A stretch of 64,000 bases of DNA, from the NCBI RefSeq assembly GCF_000483485.1, contig NZ_KI519609.1:1021460-1085459 (forward strand), read 5' to 3'. Within the stretch, counting starts at the first letter, position 1, and each line of letters begins with the position of its first letter. Shown piece by piece: positions 5,851-8,748 of this stretch. The notes under the pieces were generated by a model. It was not told the DNA's origin and ran no database searches. It saw nothing but the letters and a program-made list of their open reading frames with translations. The translations under genes were made by a program, and so were the position numbers. The stretch is from Thiomicrorhabdus chilensis DSM 12352 (GTDB lineage: Bacteria > Pseudomonadota > Gammaproteobacteria > Thiomicrospirales > Thiomicrospiraceae).

Positions 5851-7863
5851 TTATTGAAGCGGCGTCAAGACACAGCAGGTGTTCTGCTGTAGAAAGTGTT
5901 CAAAACTTTCAACCGGAAGTGGCGGGGCACAATAGAAGCCCTGGTAGGCTTCACAGCCGATCGACTGCAGATACTCGAGTTGAGCCTGGTTCTCGACTCC
6001 TTCCGCTACGACCGACAAATCAAGGGTTTTGGCGATTTTGACGATGGTTTCGATAAAAATCGCACCGGAATCGGTGTCATAATCATCCATAAAGGATTTG
6101 TCGATTTTCAAGGTGTTGATTGGAAAACGTTTCAGGTAGGCCAGCGAAGAGTAGCCTTTACCGAAATCATCCAGTGAAATCGAGACGCCATAGTTGCGTA
6201 TTTTGTTGAGCAGCCTGAGGTTTTGTGGTGAGTCTTCCATAAACACCGATTCGGTCATCTCGATGTCGAGCTTATTGGGTTTGATTCTGGCCGAGCTGAT
6301 TAAACTTTGGAATTTATTCTCGAAGTGGGTGTCCAGAAACTGGACGGGAGAGAGGTTGACCGAGATTTTCAGGTCAATGATGCCGGCTTCTTTCCAAGCT
6401 GTTTGTTGGCGAACGGCCTCCTGCAGGATCCAGTCGCCCAGATCGACCATTAAGCCGTTTTTTTCTGCGGCGGGAATAAATTCATCGGGCGGAATCAGAC
6501 CTTTGTGCGGGTCGATCCAGCGAACCAAGGCTTCAGCTCCAATGACTTCCCCGGTACGGGTTGAGATTTTTGGCTGGTAATAGAGTCTGAATTCACCGTT
6601 CTTAAGGGCTCTCCGCATATTTTGTTCGAGTTCGATGTCTTGAATGACTTGTTGCTGTAACGCTTCGGTAAAGAATTTGAATTGGTTTTTGCCGGCGCTT
6701 TTGGCTTCGTACATGGCGATGTCGGCGTTTTTCATCAATGAGGTGATGTCGACCCCGTCCTTAGGGTAAAAAACCACACCGGCACTGGCGGAGATTTTGA
6801 TGGGGTGGGATTCGACGAGATGGACACTGGTGATGTGCTCCAAAACTCGTTGAATGATATGGCTGAGTTCAACCATGCTTTTATAGTGACTCAAAACTAT
6901 GACAAATTCATCACCGCCGACGCGTGCGATGATGTCGTATTTTCTCAGCACTTCCTGCAGAATTCCGGAGATGTTTTTGAGTAATTCATCTCCGATGTCA
7001 TGGCCAAGGGTGTCGTTGACGGTTTTAAAGTTATCCAAATCCACAAACAACAGCGCAAATTCGGTTTTGTTGCGCGAGGCTTCGTCAATCAGCCAGCCGA
7101 GTCTTTCGTTGAGCTGGTTGCGGTTTGCCAACCCGCTTAAGTTGTCGGTTCTGGCAAGCCGGTAGAGTTCATCACGCTCATGCTCCAAACGGTCGAAAGT
7201 CTGTACCATGGAGGATCGCACGTATTCCAGCTCGCGGATTTTGAAGTGTTGCGGTGTTTCCGATTGATAGTAGGCATATTGTCTTAGGTGTTCAAGCGGA
7301 TGAGTGATGTATTTGCGCAGGGCTAGCCATAAGAGCAGAAAAACCAGTAGCGGAGTCAAGCCGAAAACCAATAAGAAATTGAGTTGATTCTCGGCAAAAT
7401 AATTGCTGACATGATTTTTATCGAGATAGATGAATAACTCGAACTGTGCGGGCTGATCCTGGATGAAAAAACGGATTTTCGTTTCGAAAATCTGACTGTT
7501 CATCAATTGTTGTGCCGAAATGTTCTGTAGGTTTGACAGCGTAATCTTATCAGGTGGCGGTTTGGATAGGGAGGTGTCGGTAGACAGCAGGATGTGATTA
7601 CCGTAAGAAACGGCCATGGCGCGGATTAAAGGGTTGTTGGCGACCTTGCGGTGTAAAAAGGATTTGAAGGATTTTACCGACTCGATGGTGCGCATTTCCG
7701 TTGAAATGATATAGGCGGTTTCGGAAAGGTCATGCCGGATGTTTTCAATGATCAGGTTGGTTTTTTGTTGTTGGTCATTGAGGTAGTAATAAGCAAACAC
7801 CGAATAAAACACTAGGATGATGAATACTAAAGCCGCAATGACGAAACGATGAATGGATAGCAT
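5851..7863 (-). CDS. Membrane GGDEF-EAL c-di-GMP turnover protein
   Basis: 670 residues. A membrane anchor at about 8-28, a periplasmic region to about 160 and a second membrane helix at 163-183 lead into a HAMP-like linker. A GGDEF domain follows (GGDEF 316-320, inhibitory I-site RKYD at 307-310). The EAL domain has EALVRW at 444-449, VNLSPVQF, EMTES, DDFGKG at 565-570, KIDKS and AEGVE. All catalytic motifs of both activities look intact, so synthesis and breakdown of c-di-GMP are both possible. Its ATG directly follows the stop of the binding-protein gene upstream with no spacer, implying coupled translation and a shared job. Confidence 0.92.
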   Translation of the reverse strand: MLSIHRFVIAALVFIILVFYSVFAYYYLNDQQQKTNLIIENIRHDLSETAYIISTEMRTIESVKSFKSFLHRKVANNPLIRAMAVSYGNHILLSTDTSLSKPPPDKITLSNLQNISAQQLMNSQIFETKIRFFIQDQPAQFELFIYLDKNHVSNYFAENQLNFLLVFGLTPLLVFLLLWLALRKYITHPLEHLRQYAYYQSETPQHFKIRELEYVRSSMVQTFDRLEHERDELYRLARTDNLSGLANRNQLNERLGWLIDEASRNKTEFALLFVDLDNFKTVNDTLGHDIGDELLKNISGILQEVLRKYDIIARVGGDEFVIVLSHYKSMVELSHIIQRVLEHITSVHLVESHPIKISASAGVVFYPKDGVDITSLMKNADIAMYEAKSAGKNQFKFFTEALQQQVIQDIELEQNMRRALKNGEFRLYYQPKISTRTGEVIGAEALVRWIDPHKGLIPPDEFIPAAEKNGLMVDLGDWILQEAVRQQTAWKEAGIIDLKISVNLSPVQFLDTHFENKFQSLISSARIKPNKLDIEMTESVFMEDSPQNLRLLNKIRNYGVSISLDDFGKGYSSLAYLKRFPINTLKIDKSFMDDYDTDSGAIFIETIVKIAKTLDLSVVAEGVENQAQLEYLQSIGCEAYQGFYCAPPLPVESFEHFLQQNTCCVLTPLQ

Positions 7864-8748
7864 TTACATAAGGTCTCTAATGGGGAATTGAGCTTGATTG
7901 AGACGTTTTACCAAGGCATCCGAAAGTTCATGGTTTAACCATTCGATATCCTGCAACCCTGATTGAAATTCTTCAAAGCTGTTGTTTTCAAGGTAGGGTT
8001 TGACCTTCGTGTAGTATTCATGAGGATCGTTGTTTAAGGCTTGAAGTGAACGATTCACAATGGTTTTCAAGGCTTTGAACTGATCTTCATGAGCCGCAAA
8101 ATTTTCTTTGTTGGTGTAAAGGGCATCGACAACCAGAAGATCCAACCCATTTCGAGTCGACCCTAGGGTTTGAAAGCCGAGTGTTTTGAGTTTGTGGTTA
8201 TAAGGTACATAGGTCACAACGATAGTGGGCCGCTTGATTTTGGGTAGGCTTTCAAGCTCGGACACAATGCGTAATTGATCGTTGTTGATATAGTTGAATG
8301 TTTTGTTTTCCAGGCGGTTTCTTTTGATGAAGTCCTTGAAAACTACATGGTTGATCGAGTTGATCTCAAGGTAGACGTCAATGGTCGCTGAACTCTCCTC
8401 AAGTGCCTTCAGGCTGTGGTTGCTCATGACCATGTCGCCGCCTTTGGAGCGGTTGAACATAATGATGGGCATCAATGAGCGTTCTTGTCCCAGTACTTGA
8501 CGGTATTCATATTGGGTACCGGTAAAGGCATGCATGTGGTTGGTTTGATAGATGTGCATGCTCTCACCAAGCGAGACCACGGTGGACAGTTTGATGTTGT
8601 GTTCATCCAGCCAGCCACTCTCTTTGGCGTAAAAAAGTGGCGAATAACCAATCCAGGAGTTGGCGATGATTTTGAGTTGAGGTGCCTCTTTGCTGCTGCA
8701 GGCCGAGAGCAGGATGAACAGGGAAAGCAGCAATAATTTTAGTTTCAT
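7864..8748 (-). CDS. NMT1/SsuA-like periplasmic solute-binding lipoprotein
   Basis: 294 residues with a lipoprotein signal ending LLSAC (Cys17). The type 2 periplasmic-binding fold resembles nitrate/taurine/thiamine-precursor binding proteins, with NSWIGYSPLFYAKESGWLDE near the start as the family hallmark. No ABC permease or ATPase is nearby. The gene instead abuts a membrane GGDEF-EAL protein with a periplasmic domain. The likely role is ligand sensing for that enzyme, as NspS does for MbaA in Vibrio cholerae; this is inference from arrangement. The ligand cannot be named from sequence. Confidence 0.85.
   Translation of the reverse strand: MKLKLLLLSLFILLSACSSKEAPQLKIIANSWIGYSPLFYAKESGWLDEHNIKLSTVVSLGESMHIYQTNHMHAFTGTQYEYRQVLGQERSLMPIIMFNRSKGGDMVMSNHSLKALEESSATIDVYLEINSINHVVFKDFIKRNRLENKTFNYINNDQLRIVSELESLPKIKRPTIVVTYVPYNHKLKTLGFQTLGSTRNGLDLLVVDALYTNKENFAAHEDQFKALKTIVNRSLQALNNDPHEYYTKVKPYLENNSFEEFQSGLQDIEWLNHELSDALVKRLNQAQFPIRDLM

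Follow-up and report, generated by a model that had tools for sequence, protein, structure and literature searches.

The window analysed here, a stretch of 64,000 nucleotides from the sulfur-oxidising bacterium Thiomicrorhabdus chilensis DSM 12352, raises the question of what a solute-binding lipoprotein does when its gene runs directly into that of a GGDEF-EAL protein: is it the binding protein of an importer encoded elsewhere, or does it serve its neighbour as a sensor? On the minus strand, an open reading frame of 294 aa (positions 7864-8748) is followed by one of 670 aa (5851-7863), and the TAA of the first (7866-7864) meets the ATG of the second (7863-7861) at a spacing of zero, just as a preliminary description of this DNA had placed them. 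A weak purine-rich stretch, AGAGA at 7874-7878, lies ahead of the receptor ATG within the lipoprotein gene, and promoter and terminator scans across the operon were uninformative. The title of the preliminary description called the pair fused, which is right for the coupling of the genes in an operon but not for the proteins, as no protein fusion is present. The two genes and their junction are as follows.

7864..8748, minus strand: solute-binding lipoprotein gene, 294 aa, predicted NMT1/TauA-type fold
5851..7863, minus strand: membrane receptor gene, 670 aa, TM-periplasmic sensor-TM-linker-GGDEF-EAL
7861..7866, minus strand: TAA-ATG junction, lipoprotein stop abutting receptor start (spacing in relatives -14 to +12 bp)

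The receptor had been described as a membrane protein with a periplasmic domain and intact GGDEF and EAL motifs, and each of these elements was recovered: a TM-sensor-TM arrangement is predicted, the Pfam matches to both catalytic domains are strong and the motif positions are present.

7384..7782, minus strand: periplasmic sensor, residues ~28-160, long helices and a four-strand sheet, weakly Cache/PDC-like, fastest-evolving part
6682..7152, minus strand: GGDEF domain with RKYD I-site and GGDEF motif (PF00990, E=5e-48)
5920..6624, minus strand: EAL domain, tested catalytic motifs present, loop 6 DDFGKGYSS (PF00563, E=2e-73)

The RxxD I-site (RKYD) lies five residues upstream of the GGDEF motif, which is found in 18/18 aligned receptors, and the EAL, N, E, DD, K, E and Q positions are all present in the EAL domain. 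As far as motifs go, the receptor has what is expected of both a diguanylate cyclase with an I-site and an EAL phosphodiesterase. Its loop 6 carries K569 (codon 6157-6159) where the other aligned receptors read DDFGTGYSS, and in several relatives EAL is replaced by ESL or ECL. The N-terminal 240 residues were modelled with a pLDDT of 89.9: TM1 is a long helix that reaches into the periplasm, and a further helix and a sheet of four strands come before TM2 and the linker. In Foldseek searches of the PDB, the best resemblances of the sensor were weak and fell on the Cache/PDC sensors KinD (E=9.5e-4, with a TM of only 0.36) and WalK; one family partner, the receptor of locus L130, gave a match to sCache_4.

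Searches with the single sequence of the lipoprotein gave no match in Pfam (up to E=1), NCBIfam or the PDB sequences, and direct comparison with the PF09084 and PF13379 profiles gave none up to E=1. An AlphaFold2 model built from a 55-row alignment (mean pLDDT 95.4) was matched by Foldseek in the PDB to Thi5-like CA3427, TauA, ThiY, Thi5 and SsuA (E ~1e-9 to 1e-12, TM ~0.65). One close-family member (L135) matches PF09084 above its cut-off, and more distant relatives match PF09084/PF13379 strongly. Because of these fold matches and relatives, we place the lipoprotein, by predicted fold and kinship, in the NMT1/ThiY/TauA/SsuA group; the earlier label of NMT1/SsuA-like holds on these two grounds, although it could not be proven from the single sequence. 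Three of its residues matter for what follows.

8698..8700, minus strand: lipobox cysteine C17 (LSAC), present across the whole close-family alignment
8434..8436, minus strand: codon of pocket residue D105, invariant, aligned to TauA Glu106, an amine contact (PMC6906117)
8125..8127, minus strand: codon of D208, a pocket residue unchanged throughout the 55-row alignment and aligned to TauA Asp205, an amine contact that is Gly in SsuA (PMC6906117)

E. coli TauA was aligned with the lipoprotein by both profile search and hhalign, and at 14% identity the alignment pairs D105 with Glu106, D208 with Asp205 and Y180 with Trp176. In TauA the amine of taurine is held by Glu106, Thr132 and Asp205, and SsuA lacks the last of these (PMC6906117). 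All of 46 close and 9 distant relatives keep D105 and D208, 50 distant ones do so almost without exception, and the cleft residues D105, E128, D208, T78 and W32 stay invariant or nearly so down to ~20% identity. Since the invariant D105 and D208 align with amine contacts of TauA, we tentatively lean, at odds clearly longer than even, to a taurine-like ligand that combines a cationic group, such as an amine, with an anionic or polar end. Two lower-scoring relatives that are not part of signalling pairs, L136 (next to an ABC ATPase) and L149, also have the pocket fingerprint, which was rejected as a marker of signalling since the ABC-linked L136 carries it too. The second of these (L149:4085-5062, at G000:C1:555210) encodes an NMT1-type protein that lies among creatininase-like and glutamine synthetase-like genes. 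Guilt by association was likewise rejected as a route to the ligand, as there is no consistent third gene and the proS/SDR, pst-like, leuC-like and mobA-like contexts vary: the commonest outer neighbour, proS, occurs at 6/46 loci, the proS/SDR context is confined to one Thiomicrorhabdus group, and leuC-like and mobA-like genes stand beside two loci (names by sequence inspection).

The expectation that the two genes would be kept together in relatives was borne out both in close loci and by reciprocal co-occurrence within the genus. A GGDEF or GGDEF-EAL gene stands directly downstream of the lipoprotein gene in 47/47 close-family loci with a visible next gene, where each locus was counted once, contig ends and the remote Acidobacteria match L136 were left out, and not all loci are independent (L104 and L105, for example, are near-copies). 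The intergenic spacing in this family is -14 to +12 bp where measured, and the pair at L134 overlaps. In the 58 genomes around T. chilensis, all homologues with E < 1e-80 are followed at once by a homologous receptor, at a spacing of -1 to +12 bp. A species-wide scan (one genome per species, 84,980 species) yielded 41 organism-named loci, from Thiomicrorhabdus, Hydrogenovibrio, Sulfurimonas, Sulfuricurvum, Arcobacter, Aliarcobacter, Sulfurospirillum, Colwellia and unclassified MAGs. The receptor reading frame is broken at three loci (L037, L107 and L117), probably by assembly errors, and L130 and L132 have a shorter partner with GGDEF as its only catalytic domain. When 32 genomes of the genus were searched reciprocally with the sensor domain, all 17 matches, in 14 genomes, fell at lipoprotein loci, and each genome had both the lipoprotein and the receptor sensor or neither, the sole exception being a lipoprotein fragment at a contig edge (G010); of the tests for a unit this one is the strongest. 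Because of the 47/47 conservation, in surroundings that differ from locus to locus, the lipoprotein-receptor pair is, judged by gene order, a conserved unit beyond what chance would give. The T. chilensis genome holds a second pair (locus L031, 7889-10817, in the region of G000:C1:196945-200460), whose lipoprotein is 48% identical to the first. With modest branch supports, it groups with Sulfurimonas and Sulfuricurvum sequences and not with the 5851-8748 pair, which suggests that the pair may have been exchanged between phyla. This second pair is faced directly by another GGDEF-EAL gene.

The observation that no transporter lies nearby was also upheld, since the nearest BPD_transp_1 (PF00528) permease to the 5851-8748 pair is ~250 kb away in the T. 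chilensis genome. Relatives gave the same picture when ABC permeases were sought just outside the pair: a search of 11 genomes found no BPD_transp_1 permease within 40 kb of any of 13 pairs. The lipoprotein lacks the linked permease and ATPase genes that characterise an ABC importer. The one permease of the T. chilensis genome found next to an NMT1-domain protein comes with a binding protein of its own (38531 beside 39697). The sole ABC neighbourhood seen within the close family is a pst-like phosphate operon with its own PstS, which adjoins four Sulfurimonas-type loci (L104, L105, L107 and L114; names from sequence inspection). At these loci the pstS-like genes lie directly upstream of the pair on the same strand, accompanied at three of them by a porin-like gene, and a link to phosphate limitation is possible from this arrangement.

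As far as gene neighbourhoods can tell, the pairing is much wider than the preliminary description supposed, and histidine kinases are also among the outputs. A class-wide search of 369 genomes gave 38 with a match at E<=1e-10, and the downstream partners at 35 class-wide loci were GGDEF/EAL proteins at 21 and histidine kinases at 10, with four loci lacking an assigned partner. Sixteen weaker matches in the T. chilensis family of genomes (L064 and L058 included in the checks) had a GGDEF protein or a kinase downstream in 14 cases. In a phylum-wide sample of 20 loci, a histidine kinase was found downstream at 16 (nine recognised by Pfam, three by motif and four as close homologues), a GGDEF/EAL protein at one and an ABC permease at three, the ABC-linked proteins scoring 134-136 bits versus 176-239 for the rest. 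The distant signalling relatives are ~20% identical to the lipoprotein. In plasmid records both kinds of partner were seen, EAL in Niveispirillum and ABC in Pseudomonas hydrolytica and Ideonella. A quick tree of 80 binding proteins has 15 changes of partner label, and its well-supported branches require at least four changes of the GGDEF/EAL or kinase label. The seven ABC rows fall on one side of an unsupported branch, and ABC-linked relatives are under-sampled both in this tree and in the distant surveys because matches were picked by score against the inner family. Since most of the distant loci precede GGDEF/EAL or kinase genes and the partner label changes on the tree, this binding-protein lineage looks like one used as an interchangeable sensor of GGDEF/EAL enzymes and histidine kinases. 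A bolder reading, which we would rate a little below even, is that an NMT1-type lineage spread across Gammaproteobacteria and further Pseudomonadota, one inner branch of which also occurs in Campylobacterota, left transport and became a plug-in sensor whose outputs were swapped repeatedly and whose invariant pocket (WxGY, T, SxGxD, E, D) would serve one amine-bearing class of ligand.

Other arrangements of binding-protein domains were seen in the course of these surveys. In the distant pairs L157:2461-4701, L168:2972-6973, L057:7946-11914 and L219:4315-6768 the receptor begins with a Phosphonate-bd domain (PF12974), and there would therefore be two binding-protein modules within one system. 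NMT1 (PF09084) domains also lie inside open frames of 659-918 aa in G000:C1 (near 326302, 479151, 1696713 and 2299966), and these frames probably encode receptors in which the binding protein is part of the same chain. At G000:C1:485151-488268, an NMT1-type frame of 340 aa shares its strand with an 806-aa frame whose EAL domain is ~2 kb away, and the two may be the third binding-protein/EAL pair of the T. chilensis genome.

We propose, with a probability of roughly 0.8, that the lipoprotein is a signalling-dedicated ligand-binding partner that steers a bifunctional c-di-GMP enzyme, the two proteins acting as one sensory unit with no role in transport. The exported, lipid-anchored lipoprotein would bind a small molecule outside the cytoplasm in the cleft that separates its lobes and, once closed, would dock on the receptor at its periplasmic domain, which weakly resembles Cache folds. 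Docking would shift the balance of the receptor between synthesis by GGDEF and breakdown by EAL, so that c-di-GMP, and hence attachment or motility, would be tuned to the molecule caught. We infer the ligand binding, the docking, the change in c-di-GMP and the direction of the response by analogy with NspS-MbaA and PruR-DcpA, and adjacency of genes is in itself no proof that their products touch. A read-through fusion of the two proteins was rejected as a substitute for the complex, since the binding protein would then be tethered to TM1 at its cytoplasmic end. Across the pairs the catalytic part is on average 54% identical, the binding protein 48% and the sensor 29%, and few sensor residues are invariant outside the membrane-proximal linker. 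The distances among the binding proteins track those among the sensors (r=0.87, and 0.51 once the catalytic part is taken out; Mantel 0/2000), a correlation of which shared ancestry of linked genes may explain part. The higher conservation of the binding protein, and a correlation with the sensor that outlasts removal of the catalytic part, fit recognition of the ligand by the lipoprotein together with a co-evolving contact with the sensor.

The sensor domain might instead bind a ligand of its own, which the lipoprotein would only deliver or buffer. Cache-type folds are frequently direct binders of small molecules and the sensor fold weakly resembles Cache/PDC, but it is the pocket of the lipoprotein that is invariant, while the sensor is the least conserved part of the system, and we consider this explanation unlikely. 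About equally improbable is that the lipoprotein has no soluble ligand and is an outer-membrane sensor of the envelope or of contact, reaching the receptor upon envelope disturbance or surface touch in the manner of NlpE and RcsF. The residue at +2 after the lipid-bearing cysteine is Ser in 36/46 members and Asp in 0/46, and by the E. coli Lol rule, which may not hold in these bacteria, a non-Asp residue at this position directs a lipoprotein to the outer membrane. The rule therefore predicts an outer-membrane anchor, far from the inner-membrane receptor, which is a real difficulty for the docking model; the linker before the lipoprotein fold is short, which also favours an envelope sensor. 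Against it stands the invariance of the five cleft residues, as expected of a working pocket. Less likely still is that the lipoprotein is an ordinary transport protein, its ABC importer being encoded at another locus and the receptor gene being a mere neighbour; the fold is that of ABC-type binding proteins and some distant relatives are ABC-linked, yet the 11 genomes hold no permease within 40 kb, the genes remain neighbours at all 47 loci across two phyla, the sensor domain never occurs without the lipoprotein in the genus and the T. chilensis permease beside an NMT1-domain protein has a binding protein of its own.

The inputs of most c-di-GMP enzymes are not known. A compact unit whose ligand catcher is of the soluble type and easily purified would allow the input to be found by ligand screening, and the same screen would open up the many histidine kinases that have binding-protein partners of this lineage. 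In sulfur-oxidising bacteria of vents and sediments, it would show which molecule helps to decide between swimming and settling.

The working principle is already known from NspS-MbaA, ScrB-ScrC and PruR-DcpA. Our literature search, which was incomplete and on which the novelty rests, turned up no account of a c-di-GMP enzyme under the control of an NMT1-type binding protein; the pair of two such proteins is real and conserved, and probably undescribed, and the broader lineage behind it is apparently undescribed too. TauA, SsuA and ThiY share the fold of the lipoprotein, and TauA shares acidic residues at the positions of Glu106 and Asp205 (PMC6906117), but these proteins partner ABC permeases, of which the lipoprotein has none linked, and the position of TauA Thr132 is Ile/Val in the lipoprotein. 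In the ScrB-ScrC system of Vibrio parahaemolyticus (PMC10269520), a periplasmic binding protein that switches a dual GGDEF-EAL enzyme is likewise encoded with it in one operon; there, however, ScrA of the same operon makes the signal, whereas no such third gene is conserved beside the present pair. The PruR systems of Agrobacterium and others (PruR-DcpA and PruR-DTB; PMC13259868) resemble it in having a ligand-binding protein gene directly upstream of a c-di-GMP enzyme or histidine kinase, the same modular outputs, and ligand-loaded PruR biases DcpA towards breakdown (PMC13259868). PruR is a relative of the sulfite-oxidase family that binds pterins, whereas the lipoprotein is a two-lobed solute-binding protein.

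NspS-MbaA of Vibrio cholerae and Sinorhizobium meliloti (PMC8967002, PMC9993111) has the same gene order: the gene of the binding protein comes just before, or overlaps, that of a membrane protein made up of periplasmic, GGDEF and EAL parts. It occurs, according to its authors, in <1.4% of proteobacterial genomes (PMC8967002, PMC9993111), and its bifunctional enzyme is set to synthesis or breakdown according to the ligand state of NspS (PMC8967002). Signalling is separate from transport in that system, as would be the case here by analogy and gene context, and variant motifs occur in both, EVL in MbaA and ESL or ECL in some relatives of the receptor. The binding proteins differ, NspS being PotD-like and polyamine-binding and the lipoprotein NMT1/TauA-type and lipid-anchored. 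Neither the lipoprotein nor the relatives tested gave a PotD-type Pfam match, in agreement with the preliminary description, which had assigned it to a family other than that of NspS. By these sequence comparisons the pair shares with NspS-MbaA the adjacent membrane GGDEF-EAL gene and is set apart from it by the family of its binding protein, and since that family is not the PotD-like one of NspS, a different ligand input is likely.
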